Part shown: piece after piece, positions 16,080 through 33,591 of the stretch
Position numbering within the stretch: the stretch's first letter is position 1
How the letters are laid out: every line of letters begins with the position of its first letter
NCBI RefSeq assembly: GCF_014841105.1
Contig: NZ_JACYWE010000002.1
Coordinates: 1 to 34,417, forward strand
Origin: Lolliginicoccus lacisalsi
GTDB lineage: Bacteria > Actinomycetota > Actinomycetes > Mycobacteriales > Mycobacteriaceae
Reading direction: 5' to 3'
Length of the DNA: 34,417 nt
Notes under the pieces: model-generated
Database searches by the model: none
What the model saw: only the letters and a program-made list of their open reading frames with translations
What the model was told of the DNA's origin: nothing
Program-made: the position numbers and the translations under genes

Positions 16080-16099
16080 CTATACAGGCAAGGGGCGGA

Positions 16100-16514
<415 letters not shown>

Positions 16515-23978: not shown

Positions 23979-24659
23979 ATGACACACACTGCGGTTCTCA
24001 GCGGGCGTGGCCTCACCAAGCGCTACGGTCCCCGCACCGTCCTGCACGACACCAGCATCGACGTCGAGCCACGGGGCACCCTCGCCATCATGGGACCCTC
24101 CGGCTCCGGCAAGTCCACCCTGCTGCATCTGCTGAGCGGCATCGTGCAGCCCGATGCGGGCGAGGTCCTCCTCGAAGGCACCGCCATCAGTGCCTTGCGG
24201 GAATCCGAGCGGACCGCGCTGCGGCGACGCGCGTTCGGGTTTGTCTTCCAGTCCGGCCAGCTCCTGCCCGAGCTGCCCGCGATCGAGAATGTCGCGCTGC
24301 CCCTCATCCTCGACGGCATGGCCGTGCGCGCCGCCCGCGATCGGGCAGCCACGTTCTTCGCGCCGCTCGGCATCGCCGGGCTCGAGGAGCGCCGTCCCGG
24401 CGAGATGTCCGGCGGGCAGGCCCAGCGCGTCGCCATCGCCCGCGCGATGGTGGCCCGGCCGACGGTGTTGTTCGCCGATGAGCCCACCGGCGCCCTCGAC
24501 GCCCGCACGTCCCAGGACGTGATGGGCATCCTCGTGGAGGCAAGCCGCCACCTCGGGACCGCGCTGGTCGTGGTGACCCATGATCCGCAGGTGGCGGGCA
24601 ACTGCGAGCACATAGTCCACATGCACGATGGCCGCCTCGCGCAGCGGAGCGCGTCATGA
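23979..24659 (+). CDS. ABC transporter ATP-binding protein (LolD/MacB type)
   Basis: 226 residues, a complete nucleotide-binding domain: Walker A GPSGSGKST near 39, Q-loop FQSGQLL near 91, signature MSGGQAQR near 145, Walker B VLFADEPTGALD near 165 and switch His in VVTHD near 205. The DEPTGALD form and its length are typical of partners of FtsX-like permeases. ATG 23979 is preceded by GGAG only 3 nt away; GTG 23970 is an in-frame alternative. The stop overlaps the permease start (ATGA at 24656), so the subunits are made together. Substrate unknown; such pairs export lipoproteins, peptides or antibiotics, or sense envelope stress. Confidence 0.93.
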   Translation: MTHTAVLSGRGLTKRYGPRTVLHDTSIDVEPRGTLAIMGPSGSGKSTLLHLLSGIVQPDAGEVLLEGTAISALRESERTALRRRAFGFVFQSGQLLPELPAIENVALPLILDGMAVRAARDRAATFFAPLGIAGLEERRPGEMSGGQAQRVAIARAMVARPTVLFADEPTGALDARTSQDVMGILVEASRHLGTALVVVTHDPQVAGNCEHIVHMHDGRLAQRSAS

Positions 24660-25954
24660 GCGCGGCCACGATCCTGCGCGTGACACGGATGACCGCGCGC
24701 GCCGAGGGTCCGCGGATGCTCGCGGCACTGGCGTTGCCGATCCTCGCGTTCGCTGCCGCGACAGCGCTGGCGCTGACGGTGATCGGTGGGCACGGCGCGT
24801 TCGCGGGCCGCGATTCCCATCCCGATGCAGAGTTCTACCTGAACCTTGCCTCGATCGCGAGCATCCTGGTGATCGTCCCCTGCATCACCCTCGGGCTCGC
24901 CGCCGCCCGGCTGGGTGCCCGCAAGCGCGACGCGCGCCTGGCGTCGTTGCGGCTAGCTGGCGCCACCCCCGGCGATGTCGAGGGAATGGCGATGCTCGAG
25001 GCGGCGATCGCGGGACTGCTGGGAGCACTGATGGGCGCGTTGATCAACGCGGCGCTGCTGCCGGTGGTCGCGCTGCTGCCGTTCCAGGGCGAGCCGTTCG
25101 CCGCCAGCGAGCTGTGGGTGGGGCCGTGGATGCTGCTGGCCACCCTCGCGGGCGTAGTGCTGCTCGCGGCAGCCACGTCGCTGCTCGGGCTGCGAAGCAT
25201 CGCCATCACACCGCTCGGCGTCACCCAGCGGCACGCGCCCCGGCCTCACGGCCTGGTGCTGCTGGTGGTGGCCGGTGGTCTCCTGCTGCTGTGGACGCAG
25301 GCCGCCACGGTGGCCGCGGGCATCACCGCACTGCTCGTCGCGCTCGCGATCACCTTCGCGATGCTCAACGTCGTGGGGCCGGTCATCGTCTCGCTCGTCG
25401 GCCGTGCCATGCTCGCGCGGGCCAGCGACGCCGCGTCCTTGATCGCCGCGCGCCGTGTGCTCGACGCCCCGGCGCAGTCGTGGCGCGCCGTCAGCGGCGT
25501 GGCCGTCGCCAGCTTCGTCGCCGCGGGGACCGCGCTGCTCACCGCGATTGGCAGCGACACTGGCCAGGATCAGATGATGAGCGATATGCGGCTTGGTGTC
25601 GCCTTCACCGTGGTGGTGACGTTCCTGCTCGCCGCGATCTCGTCGGCGCTCACCCAGGCCGCGGCGATCCTCGAGCATCGCGACCTGTATGTGGCGCTGC
25701 ACCATGCGGGCACGCCGGTCGCTGTCATGCAGGCGGCGCGCTCGCGGCAGGCTCGTGGGCCGGTGCTGGTGCTGTCGGTTGTCTCCGCGGGCGCCGCGCT
25801 GGCGTTCCTGTTCCCCATCACGGGTGCCGTGGTCCTCGTTGATCCGTTGGCGCTCGGCCAGGTGCTGGCGCTGCTCGCGCTCGGCAATGCGCTTGTCCTC
25901 GGGGGCGTGCTCGCCACGCGACCGGTGCTGCGCAGGGCCGTTCGCGCGGGCTAG
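24656..25954 (+). CDS. FtsX-like ABC transporter permease
   Basis: 432 residues, strongly hydrophobic. Membrane segments appear at about 23-45, 62-84, 110-140, 155-180, 198-215, 218-250, 282-305, 315-340, 365-390 and 398-422, arranged as two halves. The short cytoplasmic motif ARKRDARLASLRLAGATPGDV after the second segment and LVALHHAG-like YVALHHAGTPVAVMQ in the second half are typical of this duplicated permease type. No large extracellular domain is present, unlike MacB. Its TAG stop shares the CTAG palindrome at 25951-25954 with the stop of the STAND ATPase gene on the other strand. Not found at this place in M. tuberculosis. Confidence 0.88.
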   Translation: MSAATILRVTRMTARAEGPRMLAALALPILAFAAATALALTVIGGHGAFAGRDSHPDAEFYLNLASIASILVIVPCITLGLAAARLGARKRDARLASLRLAGATPGDVEGMAMLEAAIAGLLGALMGALINAALLPVVALLPFQGEPFAASELWVGPWMLLATLAGVVLLAAATSLLGLRSIAITPLGVTQRHAPRPHGLVLLVVAGGLLLLWTQAATVAAGITALLVALAITFAMLNVVGPVIVSLVGRAMLARASDAASLIAARRVLDAPAQSWRAVSGVAVASFVAAGTALLTAIGSDTGQDQMMSDMRLGVAFTVVVTFLLAAISSALTQAAAILEHRDLYVALHHAGTPVAVMQAARSRQARGPVLVLSVVSAGAALAFLFPITGAVVLVDPLALGQVLALLALGNALVLGGVLATRPVLRRAVRAG

Positions 25955-28860
25955 GCCCGGCGTGCGGCGAGCTCCCTGGCCCACCGCGCGCGGCCCTTGC
26001 GAGCGCTGGATGCTCGCGGATGATCGCTGCCCAGCACTCGCTCGAGCAGCGGGATGAGCTCCTCGTAGGCGCGGAGCGCAGCAGCGGCATCACCGTTGCG
26101 CCCCTTGATCCAGGCGAGGTTCGCGCGCGTGGTCAGGGTGGCGGGATGCTCGGGCCCGAGCACGCGCTCCCGGTCCGCGAGCACTTGACCGAACTCGCGC
26201 AGCGAGCGCGGGATCTCGCCGAGCTTTCCGCGCGACAGCGCGAGATTGTTGCGCGCGGCCAGGGTTTCGGGATGGTCGGGCCCGAGCACGCGCTGCTGGA
26301 GAGGGATGAGATCCTCGAGCTCCTTGATCGCGCCGTGCAGCTCGCCGGCATCGGCTTTGGCGAGGGCCAGGCTACCGCGGGCAGCGAGGGTGTCCGGGTG
26401 GTCGGGCCCGAGGAGCTGCGCCCGGCCCTCGGCGAGCGCGATCAGGTCGCCCAGTGCACCATGGTGGTCTCCCGAGCGGAGCCGCCAGGACGCGAGCGAA
26501 TACAGGGTCTCCAGCACGTCCGGGTGCGCGGCGCCCAGGGCCCGGCGCTGATCGCGGAGGAGCTGTTCGGCCTCGGAGATCGCTGCGGCATGGTCGCCGG
26601 GGGCGGCGCTCATCGCGGCGAGCCGGAAACGGGTGGCGAGGGTGGCGCGATGATCGTGGCCGAGCATCCGCTGCTGGTCCCGAAGGGTGGCCCGCGCCGC
26701 GTCCGGTGTCGTGGCGGTGGCGGCCATGCTGGCGAGGTAGTGGCTGAGGTGGTCGCGCATGGCGACGGTGGCCGGGTGCGCGGGACCGTGCAGCCGCTCG
26801 AGCACGGGAAGCATGGCGGCGAACTCGGCGGTGGCGGCCCGGTGCTGGCCAGACTTTCCCAGCCAGACAGCGACGTTGTTGCGGGTGGCGATCGTATCGG
26901 GATGCTCGGCGCCGAGGAGTTGCTCACGATCGGCGGCGAGCGCGGTGAAGTCCTCGGCGGCGCCGGCGGGGTCCCCGGCGATGCCCCGGGCACCGGCGGA
27001 GTTGCCGCGCAGCGACAGCACCACGGGATGGCCCGGGCCGAGGATACCGCTGGCGAGGCTGCTCCAGCGCGACCAGCGGGCATGGTTGTCCGCGGCGTGC
27101 GAGTTCCCCGCTGCGGTGGAGAGCAGCGCCAGCGCCTGCTCGGGCTGGCCGACGTGCAGGCAGTGGAGGGGCAGGGCGAGTCGTTTATACGTGGCGAGGG
27201 CCACGGCGGCGGTGGAGAGGCGCTGGACCGCATCCACGATCGCTCGGTGCGCCACCACCATCGCCGTGCCCGCCGGATCCACGACGGACCGGAGCGCTGG
27301 GGCCAGTACATGCCTGCGGAGGCCGACGGTCTCCTCGCTCGTGCCCGGCGCGGCTCGTTCCACGAGGGGATCGGCCAGGGCGAGGACCTCGCCGACGAAT
27401 GCCCGGGCAGCAGGGAGCCCCCGCGTGGCGAGCGCCGTCTCGATGGCCGACCGGGGCAGGATCGGCGCCGCGCCCGTGGCAAGGAGCAGGGCGAGCACGA
27501 AGCGCGCGGCCTCCGGGTCCCGGCTGGCTGCCATGATGTGCCGGGCCTGGCGCACGGCCAGCTCATCGTGCTCTCCCGCTGGCTCTCCGGACGGCGCGCC
27601 CCGCCACGCCGGGTCGCCGAGCAGGCAGACGCGCAGGCCCGCGGCCAGCGACGGCAGCGTTGCCACGTCAATGGTGTCGCGGATGCTCGCGATGATCCGC
27701 AGCCGCGCGAGCGCGCCCTCGTGCCGGTCTAGCAGCGTGCCGATGGCGTCGTCGAGGCGCTTCATCTCTGGTGGGGGCAGGTGGTCGATTCCGTCGAGGA
27801 TGACGAGGATGGGTCGCCGCCATGCCGTGGCGCACTCAGCGAGCGGGTTTTCCAGGAGCCGCTCGGTGGCCATGGCGGGCACTGTCCCGTTGACGGGGCG
27901 CGGCTCGAGGCCCGGGATGCGCGCGTGCAGCTGGGTCGCTATCTCGGCAGCGATCTCCTCGACGGAGTGCCATGCGTGGATGAGCACGATGGCCGCGACA
28001 TGGCGCGGGCTGCAATGGTCGATCGGTGCGACCTGGTCGGGCCTGGTGAGGGCGGCGAGAACGGTGGACTTGCCGCATCCGGGAGCACCAGTGATCGTGA
28101 CGAGCCGGTGGTCCCGTGCCTCGATGGCATTTTCTGCGGCGCGTTGCTGCGCTGGGGAGAGCACGATTCCCGCGAGCCGCGCATCGATGAGGGTCGCCCG
28201 CGCGGACCCGGCGGTCGCATCGTGCGCGCGGGCCTGGTTGGGGAGGACCCACAAGGATGGATCGCGCGTCGCCGCGGGTAGGCCCTGCCCGCTGGCAGCG
28301 GCGCGGATGTCGCTGGCCGTGATGCACGACGCCGCGGAGCCGATGCCCGTCGCCGCGATCCGGGCTACTTCGGCAGCCAGCCCGTTGCCCACTACCACTT
28401 CGATGCGCCCACCTCCGAGCGCGCTGGCACCGAGCGCGCTGGTCCAGCCCGGCGGCAGCATGATCGGGAGATCGAGCAGCAGGACCAGCCCGTCGATGCC
28501 GCGGTAGTGCTCGCGCAGCTCCCGCACGCATGCGCCCAGGTCCAGGCCGCCGGGCCCAAGCAGCACGGTGGCGTCCTCGGCCTTCACGTCATCGCTGATG
28601 ATCCCGAGCAGCAAGGTCGCGCCGTCGCTGTGCGCAGCGGCGAACGCGCGGTCGATCAGAGCGCGCGAGCTTGCCACTCCTGGTGCGAGCGCGATTCCTT
28701 CCGGGCCTGCCGAGTCCTGCCAGACGCCGGTGCTGAGGAGGGCACGGCGCAGTTCCAGAGCACGGCCTGGCACGCCGGGATCGATGCCGCCCGCCATTGC
28801 GAGGACCAGCGCGTGCCGCTTGCCGTCGCTGGCCGGAGCCTCGGGGTCGCCGCGCATCAC
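25951..28860 (-). CDS. STAND-type P-loop ATPase with degenerate caspase-like N-terminus and TPR array
   Basis: 969 residues from GTG 28860 (ATG 28857 adjacent). Residues about 15-165 have the strand pattern of caspase/CHAT domains of actinobacterial signalling proteins (RHALVLAMAGG..., TLLLGIISDDVKAED near 80-95, LVLLLDLP near 125-132), but the catalytic His (expected FSGHG) and Cys (expected LLLDCC) are missing. A P-loop module follows: Walker A GAPGCGKST (about 256-264), Walker B ILVILDGIDHL (near 353), sensor-like LRIIASIRD (near 385). From about 570 to the end are nine kinesin-light-chain-type TPRs of about 42 residues, each with an LGPDHPDTLAARNNLA-like motif. Family knowledge: STAND ATPases are NLR-like switches in regulation, cell death or phage defence. 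It starts 1 nt after the preceding gene, so it is coupled to it. Confidence 0.85.
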   Translation of the reverse strand: MMRGDPEAPASDGKRHALVLAMAGGIDPGVPGRALELRRALLSTGVWQDSAGPEGIALAPGVASSRALIDRAFAAAHSDGATLLLGIISDDVKAEDATVLLGPGGLDLGACVRELREHYRGIDGLVLLLDLPIMLPPGWTSALGASALGGGRIEVVVGNGLAAEVARIAATGIGSAASCITASDIRAAASGQGLPAATRDPSLWVLPNQARAHDATAGSARATLIDARLAGIVLSPAQQRAAENAIEARDHRLVTITGAPGCGKSTVLAALTRPDQVAPIDHCSPRHVAAIVLIHAWHSVEEIAAEIATQLHARIPGLEPRPVNGTVPAMATERLLENPLAECATAWRRPILVILDGIDHLPPPEMKRLDDAIGTLLDRHEGALARLRIIASIRDTIDVATLPSLAAGLRVCLLGDPAWRGAPSGEPAGEHDELAVRQARHIMAASRDPEAARFVLALLLATGAAPILPRSAIETALATRGLPAARAFVGEVLALADPLVERAAPGTSEETVGLRRHVLAPALRSVVDPAGTAMVVAHRAIVDAVQRLSTAAVALATYKRLALPLHCLHVGQPEQALALLSTAAGNSHAADNHARWSRWSSLASGILGPGHPVVLSLRGNSAGARGIAGDPAGAAEDFTALAADREQLLGAEHPDTIATRNNVAVWLGKSGQHRAATAEFAAMLPVLERLHGPAHPATVAMRDHLSHYLASMAATATTPDAARATLRDQQRMLGHDHRATLATRFRLAAMSAAPGDHAAAISEAEQLLRDQRRALGAAHPDVLETLYSLASWRLRSGDHHGALGDLIALAEGRAQLLGPDHPDTLAARGSLALAKADAGELHGAIKELEDLIPLQQRVLGPDHPETLAARNNLALSRGKLGEIPRSLREFGQVLADRERVLGPEHPATLTTRANLAWIKGRNGDAAAALRAYEELIPLLERVLGSDHPRASSARKGRARWARELAARRA

Positions 28861-28861
28861 G

Positions 28862-29851
28862 TCATGCGAGCATCCGGCGCACGCGCTCGGATTCGACGAA
28901 GTCGCGGAACTGGCGGCGCACGAAGCTCTCGAGCATGCCGTTCTCCTGGACGATCCCCAGCACGCGCGGGGCGAAGCGCAGCGCTTCCTCGATCATGTCC
29001 TCCCGGCTCACGCCCAGCTCCTCGAGGAGATCGGCGAGGGTGTAGTGGGAGTATTTCTGGAAGAACACCGCGACGCCTTCCTCCACGGCGGCGCGCAGGG
29101 CCCGGGTGCCGCGCATGTCGTTCCAGATCTCGAAGCCAAGGACGAGCAGGTCCTCGAGCTCCTGCGCGGTGAGCGACGAGCCGATGTGTGCCTCGAGCAG
29201 CTCAGCGGTGGATGCGCCCGCTGCGGGCCGGGGGGCGGCGAGGTCCGGGGTCTCGGCGGCGTCGAGGGCTCCGGCGACGATCCGTTCCACTGCTCCCCGC
29301 ACCGCGCGGTCGACGTGCGCGGGGGCCGCGGGTGCGACCCGGTTGCCCAGCGCGCCAGTGAGTCGCACCAGCATCCCGAGCCCCGGGGTGCTCGCCATGA
29401 GGTCACGGTTGCGGTTGACCGACTCCACGGCGGCCCGGTAGAGGAACCACGCCACCGAGCCGCGCACCGCCGGGCTGTGGTAGACCAGGTCGATGATGCG
29501 ATGGAAGGCTGGCATCGCGAGGAACTTCTCCGCGGCGACGGCGACGTCCCGGGCATCGTGATCGTGCAGCAGCCTCTCGTGGATGCGGCCGGCGATGTCG
29601 CCCGCGAGCTCCGGGATCGCACCCTCGATGCGCCATTCGAGCGCGTACTTGATCGCAGCGCCACTGACCTGCTGCGGGGTCACGACCTCCCCCAGCGTGA
29701 GCTGCTCCGCGGCCGCGAGCGCGTGCCCGACCTCCACGTGCACCAGTTCAGCGAGCGTGTCGCCACGGAGCTTGTCGCTGACGAACTCGGTCAACGCGTC
29801 CAGCAGTTCCTCGGGGTCGCCATATCCGGCGATCGGCTGTTTTCTCGCCAC
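28862..29851 (-). CDS. Unrecognised, mostly helical protein between cyclase and STAND ATPase
   Basis: About 329 residues from GTG 29851 (MARKQPIAGYGDPEELLDALTEFV). I recognise no family. It is predicted almost entirely helical, with no signal peptide and no membrane segment. Features: an N-terminal helical part with LTLGEVVTPQQVSGAAIKYALEWR near 50-75, HSPAVRGSVAWFLYRAAVESVNRNRDLMA near 125-155, an Ala/Pro-rich linker near 200-215, and a C-terminal helical part ending FVRRQFRDFVESERVRRMLA. The N- and C-terminal parts look like two related helical bundles (inference). It lies 17 nt after the cyclase gene and stops 1 nt before the STAND gene. Position suggests an adaptor or effector for that ATPase. 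Confidence 0.7.
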   Translation of the reverse strand: MARKQPIAGYGDPEELLDALTEFVSDKLRGDTLAELVHVEVGHALAAAEQLTLGEVVTPQQVSGAAIKYALEWRIEGAIPELAGDIAGRIHERLLHDHDARDVAVAAEKFLAMPAFHRIIDLVYHSPAVRGSVAWFLYRAAVESVNRNRDLMASTPGLGMLVRLTGALGNRVAPAAPAHVDRAVRGAVERIVAGALDAAETPDLAAPRPAAGASTAELLEAHIGSSLTAQELEDLLVLGFEIWNDMRGTRALRAAVEEGVAVFFQKYSHYTLADLLEELGVSREDMIEEALRFAPRVLGIVQENGMLESFVRRQFRDFVESERVRRMLA

Positions 29852-29868
29852 GGACCTGACAATAGTGC

Positions 29869-31287
29869 CTAACCGTGCGTACGCGTGGGCGCCACGGGCC
29901 AGGCAAGCCGCGTGAGCTTGCTGCGGCCACGCAGCTCCACGAGGTCTCCGCTCGTCCACAAGGCTTGCTCCGCCTCGGAGGCGAAGCCCACTGCCGTTGC
30001 CGAGGCCAGGACGTGGCCGGGATGCTTCTTGGCCAGCTCGGTCAAGCGGGCTGCCTCGTTGACCGGGTCCCCGATGACGGTGTACTCGAACCGCTCGGCC
30101 GCCCCGACGTTGCCGGCGGTGACCGTTCCCGCGGAGACGCCGATGCCTACTTGGATCTCCGGCATGCCCGCGAGGGCGTCGACGAGCTCCCGCGCTGTCG
30201 CGAGGGCCTGGGTGACGGCCTCCACCTGGAACACGGGGGCACCGAACACGATGAGCGCCTCATCGCCGACGAACTTGTTGACGAATCCCCGGTGCTGATC
30301 GACCACGCGGATCACGGTGTCGAAGAAGCGGTTGAGCATCGCCACGACCTCGCCCGGGCGCATCGTGGATGCCGCGCGCGTGGAGCCCACGAGGTCAACG
30401 AACATCACGGCCACGAAGCGGGTCTCGGCGCGCAGCTCGGTACCGTGCTCGAGCGCCTGCCGTGCCACGTCGCGACCCACGTGCTGCCCGAAGAGCTCCT
30501 GTGATGCCTGCGAGCGGACGGACTCGTCGATCAGCTCGCCCACCACCGCCTGCAGCGCGCCAGCCTCCGTCACCGAGTCCACTACCGGTCGGCGGCGGTC
30601 CCGGATCGCGTGGCGCATCGCGGCGAGCCTCCTGGCGGACATGCCACCGAGCAACAACGACGACACCACGGCGGTGGCCGCTCCCGCCATGATCGCCGCT
30701 TGGGCGGCACCGCCGGATCCGCCGCCACCAGCGAGGGCACCGGCGAGCAGCAGCAGGGGAACCGCGGGCACGGACACCACCCGCACGGTCCACATCCGCT
30801 CCGACCATGCCCGCGACGTGGCGACCGAGCCGACGGCGGCCCGCCCGAACTCGCGCAGCAGCGCTGGCCGCAGCCACCACACGGCGATCCAATGGTTGAT
30901 GCCCGCTGCCAGCCAAGCGACGGAGCCGACGATCCACCACGGCGCCGGATCGCCTGGCATCGCCCCGGTGCCCACGTAGTGATCCAGCACGATGATGCTG
31001 CCGAAGAGGAAACCGCAGCCCAGCGCGACGAAGGTCGCTGCGGCCAGGGCCTGGCGCAGGTCGGCGTCGGTGGGGGCCACGCTCGAGCTCGTCCACGCCC
31101 GGATGAAGCGATCGACGCGCAGCGCGATCACGGCAGCACCGAGCACCGCCACCGTGGCGATTGCCCAGTGCTCGGCGGGGCTGGCCGTGCTGTCATCGAG
31201 CAGCCATGCGCTCGTCCACCACCAGGCGACGACGAAAGCGTTTCCCAGGAGCAGCGCGACCAGCAGCGCGGCACGGGAGGACTTCAT
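29869..31287 (-). CDS. Membrane-bound class III adenylate/guanylate cyclase
   Basis: 472 residues. Six hydrophobic segments in the first 220 residues (about 7-25, 40-57, 83-102, 117-137, 170-190, 195-215) precede a HAMP-like stretch (about 215-265) and a C-terminal cyclase domain (about 280-455), the layout of the Rv1318c group. Catalytic residues are present: metal-binding Asp in MFVDLVGST (near 296), Lys and second Asp in NKFVGDEALIVFG (near 337-342), the purine-pocket Asp and the Asn/Arg in TVIGDPVNEAARL (near 402-412). The K...D pair favours ATP, so cAMP is the likely product. GAGG lies 7 nt before ATG 31287. It is 31 nt downstream of the TetR gene and 17 nt upstream of the helical gene. 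Confidence 0.93.
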   Translation of the reverse strand: MKSSRAALLVALLLGNAFVVAWWWTSAWLLDDSTASPAEHWAIATVAVLGAAVIALRVDRFIRAWTSSSVAPTDADLRQALAAATFVALGCGFLFGSIIVLDHYVGTGAMPGDPAPWWIVGSVAWLAAGINHWIAVWWLRPALLREFGRAAVGSVATSRAWSERMWTVRVVSVPAVPLLLLAGALAGGGGSGGAAQAAIMAGAATAVVSSLLLGGMSARRLAAMRHAIRDRRRPVVDSVTEAGALQAVVGELIDESVRSQASQELFGQHVGRDVARQALEHGTELRAETRFVAVMFVDLVGSTRAASTMRPGEVVAMLNRFFDTVIRVVDQHRGFVNKFVGDEALIVFGAPVFQVEAVTQALATARELVDALAGMPEIQVGIGVSAGTVTAGNVGAAERFEYTVIGDPVNEAARLTELAKKHPGHVLASATAVGFASEAEQALWTSGDLVELRGRSKLTRLAWPVAPTRTHG

Positions 31288-31318
31288 GCGTTTGCCTCGA
31301 TGCCACGCGCGGCGCGGA

Positions 31319-31930
31319 TCACGAATCCTCGTCCTGGCCGGCCTCCAGCGCGCCGAGCACGATCTGCGCGAGGCGAACCATGCGGTGCACCGCTACGTCC
31401 TGGCCGTGGGTTGGCGCGATCGCATGCGCTACCGCCAGCCGGGCGATGGAATCCGCGAGGATGACCGCATCGTCCTCGCACACCGTGGGGGTCAGTTCCC
31501 GGATGAGGCTCGCCAGCCGCTCGACCGTGCGCTCGTTGACCTGGCGCAGCAGCTCGGTGAGGCTCGACCGGTCTCCCCCGCCCGACAGGACAGTGCGGAT
31601 CAACGGCTCGTCGGCCATGTCCAGGAACATCACCAGCGCGGAGCGGAATCCCTCCTCCAGCGTGGAGGAGGTTCGCACGACGGTCGAGACAGAGTCCAGC
31701 ACCTGGTCGAGGCGATGCAGGATGTAGGCCTCCGCCAGCGATTGTCGTGATCCGAACTCGTTGTACACGGTCTGGCGGCTGATACCGACGGTCTTGGCCA
31801 CCCGGTCGATCGTCGTCGCGGCCCAGCCGTCGTGGCGGACCAGCTCATCAACCGCTGTCAGAACGGATTCGCGCAGCAGCGACCGGGCGGCCTGCGCGTA
31901 CGAGGAACGCGAGCGAGGCCTTCCGATCAT
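31319..31930 (-). CDS. TetR-family transcriptional regulator
   Basis: 203 residues. The N-terminal helix-turn-helix is clear: WAATTIDRVAKTVGISRQTVYNEFGSRQSLAEAYI (about 38-72). The C-terminal helical part (75-200) is the ligand-binding and dimer domain; a single Cys lies in LTPTVCEDD. GGAGG is 6 nt upstream of ATG 31930. It is the first gene after an 89-nt gap following the kinase gene and runs into the cyclase gene with a 31-nt gap, so it probably regulates its own operon (cyclase, helical protein, STAND ATPase). The ligand is unknown. No clear TetR operator palindrome was found in the 89-nt gap by eye. Confidence 0.93.
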   Translation of the reverse strand: MIGRPRSRSSYAQAARSLLRESVLTAVDELVRHDGWAATTIDRVAKTVGISRQTVYNEFGSRQSLAEAYILHRLDQVLDSVSTVVRTSSTLEEGFRSALVMFLDMADEPLIRTVLSGGGDRSSLTELLRQVNERTVERLASLIRELTPTVCEDDAVILADSIARLAVAHAIAPTHGQDVAVHRMVRLAQIVLGALEAGQDEDS

Positions 31931-32019
31931 GACAATCCTCCACAGGTACTTCGAACGGGCATCGCAAGCCTACCGGCGCGCGGCATGGGCCGTTGCGCAT
32001 CCTGTGACCGCAGCCGTTT

Positions 32020-33591
32020 CTAGCGCGTATCGCTATCGATCAGCAACCGGCCATCGGCATCGACCACCCGCACCTCGAGATCGCGGCTCTGCCCGTCGTA
32101 GGCGAGCCCGTTGATGCGGAGGTCCACCGATCCGTCCGGGTTGTTGGCACGCTTGTACGCCTCGATCTGCCCGAAGCTCTGCACGACGCGGGAGGACCAG
32201 TACGCCTCGAAGCCCGCGGCATCGCCATAGACCTGCTGAGCGGCCGGGGTGAGCAGGGACCACGAGCCCGCGGGATTGCTGTAGAACCGAGCCACGACCT
32301 CGCCTGCCGCGCCCCACGCCACATTGCCACCCGAGCTTGGCGTCTGCTCGAGGCCCGGCGCCGCGGATTCGGAGGTCGTGCCCGCTCCGCTGCCCACGTT
32401 GCCGCCGGACATGGTGACGATGCCGTACACCAGGCCCAGCACCATCAGCAGCACGATCACGACCGCGCCGGTGAACACCACGGGCCGCGAGCCTGATCTC
32501 GCTGCGGGGACGGGTCGCGCATCGGTCACGAAGGGGGCCATCGCGGTAGCCCGGTCGCCCCGCCGCGGGGTCGTATCAGCCGGGTAGGTGTGGGCCTGCG
32601 CGGTATCGGTTCGCACGGGGCGCGCTGGCGCGGACTGCGCTGGGGGCACGAGCTGCGTGGTCGCCGACCGTGCCGCTGATACCCCCGCCGGAACGCTCGC
32701 GCGGACAGCGTCGATCAGGCCGCGCCGGCGCCCCTGCTGAGGTGCTGCGGCACCACGCGCGCCATTGCTCTCGGCCACGCCAGCAAGCTCGGCCCGGGCT
32801 TCCCGCAGCGAGGGCCGCTGCTCCGGATCCGACGCCAGCATCCGCCGCAGCAGGACGGTCGCCTCGCCCGCGCGCCGTGGCTCGGCCATCTCCCCGCTCG
32901 CGGCCTTGTACAGCACCGCCAGGGGGTTCTGGTCCCGCCCATAGGGCGGCTCGCCCTCCAGCGCGTGGAACAACGTCGCGCCGAGCCCGAAAACATCGGA
33001 TGCGGGGGTCGGCTCGGCACCGCGCGCGATCTCCGGCGGCAGGTAGGCCACCGTGCCCGAGACCAGTCCCGTCGCTGTCAGCGTCACGTCCCCGGCCGCC
33101 TTCGAGATGCCAAAGTCGGTGATCTTCACGAGCCCGGCGTCATTGATCAGCACATTGCCCGGCTTCACATCGCGGTGAACGATGCCGGCGTTGTGGGCCG
33201 ACATCAGGGCCGACGCGACCTGCCGACCGATCCGCGCTACCTGGGGCAAGGGCAGCGTGCCCTCCGCGGACAGCACCTCCGCCAGGCTGCGCGACCTGAA
33301 GTACTCCATCACCAGGCACGGGTTGCCCTCGTGCTCGGCGATGTCGAACACGACGATCGCGTTCGGGTGCTGGAACCTCGCGGCGTTGCGGGCCTCGCGC
33401 ATCGCGCGGTGGCGCAGCATCTCGCGCTCGCTCTCCGGCAAGCCGGGCTGCACGAGGATCTCCTTGACCGCCACGGGGCGCTCGAGGCGCTCATCGATCG
33501 CGCGCCACACCACGCCCGCGCCGCCGCTGCCAATGCGCTCGACGAGGCGATAGTTCTTCGCGATCAACTCCCCGGCCTTGATGACAATCAC
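32020..33591 (-). CDS. Membrane Ser/Thr protein kinase with extracytoplasmic NTF2-like sensor region
   Basis: About 523 residues from GTG 33591 (MIVIKAGELIAKNYRLVERIG). The Hanks-type kinase domain spans about 14-270: Gly loop GSGGAGVVW, ATP lysine VAVKEI, catalytic loop HRDVKPGN near 148, DFGISK near 168 and a Thr-rich activation loop (TLTATGLVSGT). A Pro/Ala/Arg juxtamembrane region follows, then one membrane segment (about 370-391, VVIVLLMVLGLVYGIV). The outside part of about 130 residues has a Ser/Gly-rich spacer and a compact domain (EVVARFYSNPAGSWSLLTPAAQQVYG...) that looks NTF2-like rather than PASTA. It is oriented with the TetR-cyclase-STAND genes. The open frame extends upstream to 33930 without similarity. 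Confidence 0.92.
   Translation of the reverse strand: MIVIKAGELIAKNYRLVERIGSGGAGVVWRAIDERLERPVAVKEILVQPGLPESEREMLRHRAMREARNAARFQHPNAIVVFDIAEHEGNPCLVMEYFRSRSLAEVLSAEGTLPLPQVARIGRQVASALMSAHNAGIVHRDVKPGNVLINDAGLVKITDFGISKAAGDVTLTATGLVSGTVAYLPPEIARGAEPTPASDVFGLGATLFHALEGEPPYGRDQNPLAVLYKAASGEMAEPRRAGEATVLLRRMLASDPEQRPSLREARAELAGVAESNGARGAAAPQQGRRRGLIDAVRASVPAGVSAARSATTQLVPPAQSAPARPVRTDTAQAHTYPADTTPRRGDRATAMAPFVTDARPVPAARSGSRPVVFTGAVVIVLLMVLGLVYGIVTMSGGNVGSGAGTTSESAAPGLEQTPSSGGNVAWGAAGEVVARFYSNPAGSWSLLTPAAQQVYGDAAGFEAYWSSRVVQSFGQIEAYKRANNPDGSVDLRINGLAYDGQSRDLEVRVVDADGRLLIDSDTR

Follow-up and report, generated by a model that had tools for sequence, protein, structure and literature searches.

A genus-restricted TetR-cyclase-helical protein-STAND block beside a resident kinase in Lolliginicoccus, a candidate cAMP signaling locus

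Mycobacteriales encode many class III cyclases, the inputs of which are mostly unknown. The six-segment HAMP cyclases Rv1318c-Rv1320c of mycobacteria are presumably similar to the cyclase of the locus described here, with which they share a multi-segment membrane part followed by a class III catalytic domain. Other parts of the locus are familiar from conflict systems, in which STAND, caspase-like, cNMP cyclase, and TPR components occur, according to sections of Kaur et al. 2020 (PMC7159879). The same sections describe one system in which ~70% of the caspase domains in the effector position are inactive, as well as many inactive caspase and cyclase domains for which dominant-negative or decoy roles are suggested. 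Caspase-like domains that lack the His-Cys dyad are also described as pseudo-orthocaspases, one type of which carries TPRs; ~90% of them are alphaproteobacterial or cyanobacterial in the part of the account cited here (PMC6426788). In the literature searched, Lolliginicoccus is named in a single taxonomy paper, and a search for Hoyosella genomes together with adenylate cyclase returned no paper.

The locus lies in a stretch of 34,417 nucleotides from Lolliginicoccus lacisalsi (contig NZ_JACYWE010000002.1, positions 1 to 34,417), which is called the window and was analyzed at full length. It is composed of the following features.

24656-25954, plus strand: FtsX-like ABC permease (FtsX, 3e-7), left boundary of the block, syntenic in relatives
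25951-28860, minus strand: STAND, a STAND-type P-loop ATPase with a putative N-terminal pseudo-caspase domain and TPRs (Pfam AAA_22, TPR_10, TPR_12)
28862-29851, minus strand: HEL, a 329-aa helical protein of an unnamed family and likely partner of CYC, without family match
29869-31287, minus strand: CYC, a predicted membrane class III adenylate cyclase (Pfam Guanylate_cyc, 7.6e-17)
31319-31930, minus strand: TetR-family regulator (Pfam TetR_N, 7.4e-9, and TetR_C_35)
32020-33591, minus strand: PK, a one-pass Ser/Thr kinase and resident gene (Pfam Pkinase, 1.4e-46)
25951-31930, minus strand: extra block TetR-CYC-HEL-STAND of ~6 kb, not present at the syntenic site in H. rhizosphaerae and in the Hoyosella genomes G051 and G026

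A previous interpretation made from the letters of the window (the sequence-only reading) had listed five minus-strand genes with gaps of 89, 31, 17, and 1 nt, and the ORFs and coordinates agree (PK/TetR, TetR/CYC, CYC/HEL, and HEL/STAND, respectively). Its naming of a kinase, a TetR regulator, a cyclase, and a P-loop ATPase with TPRs is borne out by the Pfam matches. The FtsX permease gene converges on the STAND gene with a 4-nt overlap. An ATG one codon past the GTG may be the true start of STAND, and a simple gene caller sets the start further inside the ORF. Order and strand of the five genes are the same in L. levis and L. suaedae, the closest genomes with a species name, and the whole-gene dN/dS values of all five range from 0.05 to 0.30 between pairs of Lolliginicoccus-type species; the genes are therefore not chance ORFs. 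The wider flanks are formed by cobD and aceE, together with an AhpE-like ORF (named by eye) that adjoins masked bases. The window additionally harbors an RNase P RNA gene at 16096-16514 on the minus strand (276.8 bits).

TetR, CYC, HEL, and STAND lie between FtsX and PK in three of the four genomes of the GTDB genus, the exception being H. rhizosphaerae. In the latter, the stretch runs cobD, ABC ATPase, FtsX, kinase, two short ORFs, and aceE. The FtsX and kinase matches end ~20 bases apart, which leaves no space for further genes, and the kinase at this site is 57% identical to PK over the full length. The gap between FtsX and kinase contains a DUF4185 protein and a 98-aa ORF in Hoyosella G051, and a similar pair of ORFs was seen by eye in Hoyosella G026. 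PK is older at the site than the block and not part of it. Since three of the four genus genomes carry the block and H. rhizosphaerae is without it, the ~6 kb block most likely reflects a change that took place on the Lolliginicoccus branch. An ancestral operon of all five genes was rejected, as the kinase occupies the same site without the block in Hoyosella genomes. The five genes proposed earlier as one system are thus better divided into an older resident kinase and a block of four.

The conservation of this block holds for the three genus genomes and breaks down in the nearest outgroup, where its members are scattered. The best TetR match of H. rhizosphaerae (67%), which adjoins other genes away from the block site, and its cyclase-HEL pair occupy two distant places on contig C1, the kinase is found on contig C3, and STAND has no match in the genome. 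Homologs found mostly apart had been named beforehand as speaking against a joint system, and this is largely what the outgroup shows, because TetR, kinase, and cyclase-HEL are separate there and STAND is unmatched. A mobile-element origin of the block was considered as well and is not supported, the GC content being like that of the flanks. No direct repeats at both block borders were present among repeats of at least 16 nt, and a tRNA-Val is located on the far side of the kinase. A sigma-70 scan gave no site where 0.2 would be expected, which is neutral with regard to transcription.

The closest relative of PK in Smaragdicoccus and in one MAG (L047 and L048) is encoded ~3.7 kb upstream of the local cyclase-HEL pair; the setting differs from the one in Lolliginicoccus. 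The Smaragdicoccus kinase is 66% identical over the kinase domain (E 6.1e-122 versus 5.9e-45 for the next match in the genome), and in a genome of 5.3 Mb, any one gene would be expected no more than 5 kb from a chosen site in ~0.2% of cases. This proximity is taken as a lead only, since it was noticed post hoc and opposite-strand genes lie between the kinase and the pair. Kinase and pair are >3 Mb apart on one contig in G051 and are found on different contigs in H. rhizosphaerae, G026, and G067.

CYC retains the D, K, D, T, N, and R positions when aligned to CyaC (1wc0), which are taken to be the two metal-binding Asp, the Lys/Thr purine pair, and the transition-state Asn and Arg. The same positions are present in eight aligned HEL-adjacent cyclases, and by these residues CYC is predicted to be a class III adenylate cyclase. 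A Kyte-Doolittle scan yields five merged hydrophobic stretches and therefore five to six membrane segments, so that the membrane cyclase proposed earlier stands, with its six segments loosened to five or six. Unlike in the Rv1318c-Rv1320c enzymes, no HAMP domain is found in CYC by Pfam, and HEL follows directly downstream; the cyclases of four sister loci are short (222-279 aa). A triple cyclase cluster is also present in the genome of the window. Partner cyclases with a membrane part occur in H. rhizosphaerae and the three Lolliginicoccus-type genomes; those of H. altamirensis, Hoyosella sp. YIM 151337, Smaragdicoccus, and the MAG are ORFs of 222-279 aa that lack it. The membrane part is optional; what stays constant is the catalytic domain, followed by a short linker and HEL. 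The PycC models of PADLOC match CYC at up to 1e-18; a Pycsar effector was not found among the PADLOC matches of the other four proteins (for PK, the best 25 of 36), and the five scanned proteins do not compose a Pycsar system.

HEL was unrecognized in the sequence-only reading and is so still: nothing exceeds the curated cut-offs of Pfam and NCBIfam, for HEL as for 31 members of its family, and PADLOC gives no match. PDB profiles match only over short helices (best E 0.022-0.44), and a structure search gave no informative fold hit (best E of 0.11, TM of ~0.1). The predicted model is helical and moderately confident (pLDDT 67.5), with ends that are more confident than the middle. For a possible internal duplication of HEL, hhalign gives a score of 18.1, which 100 column shuffles approach with at most 17.9, at a probability of 4%. 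The family is found mostly in Mycobacteriales and also in Acinetobacter, and is characterized by a length of ~330 aa, a helical makeup, and a conserved C-terminal motif (EEALRFxP in near relatives), to which the HEL of the window conforms. Within the block, HEL is under the strongest constraint, with the lowest dN/dS (0.05-0.08, the upper value between L. levis and L. suaedae).

At E 1e-8, the HEL profile has matches in 7 of the 396 genomes searched in the phylum (five from the same family and two from another), and a single-sequence search retrieved six Acinetobacter records of the plasmid collection, two other plasmids, and two Acinetobacter phage records. The Acinetobacter HEL at L210 aligns with the profile across 327 columns at a probability of 99.9. 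In L209, L210, and L212 the Acinetobacter gene follows the NAD+ synthase gene nadE, whose end it overlaps by 8 nt, and its product has no Pfam or NCBIfam match above cut-off. Another relative adjoins an NAD(P)H-quinone oxidoreductase gene. Divergent HELs are found between genes identified by eye as pheST and as arginine biosynthesis genes (argCJBDF) at 8 of the 54 loci (L061, L063, L064, L065, L074, L075, L083, and L086). One relative (L141) is located on a contig labeled as an Acidobacteriaceae MAG, which may be a binning error.

The HEL search was positive in 31 of 151 genomes and returned 57 rows that represent 54 places, three genes being in two pieces. All 54 places were taken with ~8 kb on each side and searched with the window proteins; at loci of lower GC content, L039 and L169 for example, genes were placed by tblastn and by an ORF list based on length. 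A tree was built from 52 HELs, with L080 and L081 left out for want of a tblastn match. The nine HELs whose gene is immediately preceded by a cyclase gene group in one clade (SH-aLRT 99), in which the cyclase is adjacent at every locus, so the cyclase-helical link is strong within this clade. Across the family it does not hold, as 36 of the 52 loci have no cyclase match within ~8 kb on each side; among 30 named loci a cyclase match is near HEL in 12 and absent in 18. These cyclase-free loci and the nadE setting in Acinetobacter show that the family as a whole is not cyclase specific, and the NAD+ synthase, pheST/arg, and quinone oxidoreductase settings make it broader than the cyclase link.

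In a tree of 30 catalytic domains, the nine partner cyclases likewise form one clade (98/99), which is nearest to the first cyclase of the triple cluster. Beside the nine-member clade in the HEL tree stand seven sister HELs, encoded ~2.4-2.6 kb from the triple cyclase cluster. Because the partner clade is closest to the first cyclase of that cluster, the pair probably arose once, by duplication of the HEL locus at the triple cluster. With a single origin in the trees, the nine loci do not count as nine independent events. The triple class III cluster with a HEL paralog 2.4-2.6 kb downstream occurs in all seven Hoyosella- and Lolliginicoccus-type genomes examined (G000:C18:179000-196000, which is L033, and L041-L046); a gene on the opposite strand, transpeptidase-like by eye, lies between cluster and HEL in L033, L045, and L046.

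The gap between CYC and HEL is 17-53 nt in seven named loci (with HEL starts picked by the analyst), and its 17 bases are identical in the three Lolliginicoccus-type species. The pair occupies three chromosomal settings: it adjoins nuoN in H. rhizosphaerae, G026, G051, and G067 and FtsX/PK in the Lolliginicoccus-type genomes, of which there are three, and lies at other sites in Smaragdicoccus and one MAG. The nuo locus of the three Lolliginicoccus-type genomes contains no match to HEL or the partner cyclase. CYC and HEL are likely a functional pair; a literature search on helical proteins together with cyclases found no matching paper. HEL could instead have a different, general role, perhaps in redox or NAD metabolism, and lie by the cyclase incidentally. 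The relatives beside nadE, the NAD(P)H-quinone oxidoreductase gene, and nuoN, and those seen by eye beside pheST and arg genes, would fit such a role, but the cyclase-adjacent clade keeps its cyclase through all three settings, which makes this explanation improbable.

STAND is laid out as a putative pseudo-caspase domain (~1-235), an NBD (~236-590), and nine TPRs (589-968). The count of nine had been given before, and the predicted model shows the same number of helix pairs. Pfam finds TPR_10 (1.6e-35, seven stretches) and AAA_22 (1e-8), with NACHT under its cut-off (0.0012). The Walker A/B residues K264, S265/T266, and D356 are invariant in three species, and the position of the P-loop NBD between an effector-type domain and repeats predicts a STAND NTPase. 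The N-terminal 240 residues have no Pfam match; among 397 genomes of the order they are found in only 3, each belonging to the same genus. Against 201 genomes of the family, 25 match STAND, at full length only the three of its own genus, and most other matches fall within the TPRs. Among plasmids, 160 records match and none covers 80% of the query. The FxSxx-COOH TPR protein model NF040586 scores 178 bits in two stretches, best in the TPR part and below its curated cut-off of 300 bits, so STAND falls outside that family; no FxSxx-COOH partner is present among the five proteins.

The N-terminal domain resembles that of a caspase-like protein, P0001 (locus L178, genome G243), with E 6e-10 in a single comparison, and the C-terminal half of STAND is 34% identical to it. 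P0001 has a caspase domain with GHG and DAC motifs that scores 21.1 bits, just under the Pfam cut-off of 21.4. Its N-terminal domain matches 29 of 397 genomes, including two of Lolliginicoccus (E 1.4e-6 and 6.0e-5), and has no match in the genome of the window at E 0.001. Both proteins combine a caspase-homologous N-terminus, a P-loop ATPase, and C-terminal TPRs; they differ in the dyad, which only the window protein has lost, and in their gene neighbors. At L178 the gene, with its intact dyad, and a neighbor judged by eye to be a possible alpha/beta hydrolase gene (the ORF has no Pfam match) are divergently oriented; ORFs of 111 aa and 832 aa also adjoin the caspase-STAND-TPR gene.

All 14 outside rows of the alignment, including 8 near-copies from one genus, retain the catalytic His/Cys dyad, and all three Lolliginicoccus-type proteins have lost it. 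This alignment used 16 of 20 loci (L181-L196), of which L195 and L196 had no match at 1e-2 and L194 is L. levis and was not counted. No Cys before residue 262 is invariant among the three species. By these residues, the domain appears to descend from a caspase-like protease and is not predicted to be an active C14 caspase-like protease. The pseudo-caspase assignment is drawn from sequence, since outside the TPRs the AlphaFold model of STAND is of poor quality. Compared with the pseudo-orthocaspases as far as they are described in parts of PMC6426788, the STAND ATPase is placed between caspase-like domain and TPRs here, and the substitutions differ. In two of three species pairs (the window against the other two species), the N-terminal domain is the fastest part of STAND (dN/dS 0.405 and 0.525), followed by the ATPase part (0.25-0.28) and the TPRs (0.16-0.19). 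With the dyad lost and dN/dS high only at the N-terminus, the protease looks dead, while ATPase and repeats are under selection.

The same values could be read as a loose neighborhood, in which a moved CYC-HEL pair, a TetR gene, and a decaying STAND gene have their strand in common but not a function: in the same two comparisons HEL has a dN/dS of 0.05, and the best outgroup TetR match sits elsewhere beside other genes. Order and strand are kept in three species, however, HEL and STAND are 1 nt apart in the window, the Walker A/B residues are invariant, and the TPR part is constrained, which leaves this reading doubtful.

A conflict system, in which an infection signal would travel through kinase and cyclase to the STAND switch and bring about dormancy or death, is unlikelier still. 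It draws on the occurrence of such parts in conflict systems (sections of PMC7159879), on the restriction of the STAND gene to three genomes, and on its fast-evolving N-terminal domain. Against it, no recognized toxic-activity domain occurs in the four block proteins, the immediate flanks are FtsX and the kinase without mobile genes, and HEL is strongly constrained. The death-type switch fed by the kinase, as proposed in the sequence-only reading, fails on two counts, the kinase being outside the block and the dyad lost in three of three proteins; with both catalytic residues gone, caspase-type killing is unlikely. Strong PADLOC matches are limited to the kinase (PD-T4-6 and mad6, among the best 25 of 36) and the cyclase (PycC) and are read as generic to these enzyme classes. 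Since inactive caspase and cyclase domains are described for conflict systems in sections of PMC7159879, a defense role is possible, for which positive evidence was not obtained here.

The favored explanation, held with moderate confidence, is a genus-specific four-gene signaling operon, TetR-CYC-HEL-STAND, between FtsX and the resident kinase, with CYC-HEL as its core, HEL as regulator of the cyclase, and a non-proteolytic STAND. CYC would make cAMP from ATP, and HEL would bind CYC as a dedicated regulator that sets how active the cyclase is or how it responds to a signal. TetR would control expression of the block. STAND may serve as a nucleotide-driven TPR scaffold, whose former caspase domain would bind without cutting, as an adaptor or decoy. 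We infer the physical contact of CYC and HEL, the direction of control, the roles of TetR and STAND, and co-transcription. The most likely function is cAMP signaling regulated by HEL. A bolder version, with HEL as a new class of adenylate cyclase regulator and the pair signaling through the pseudo-caspase STAND-TPR platform, perhaps with input from the kinase, has a rather small chance of being correct.

If true, this would be a cAMP-linked, non-proteolytic STAND signaling complex, of a kind not found in the literature searched. The putative pseudo-caspase STAND would be a case of a conflict-type protein that keeps its ATPase and repeats while the protease has decayed. The HEL clade, which has stayed with one cyclase clade through three settings, whether the cyclase is membrane-bound or soluble, is an easily tested candidate for a regulator.
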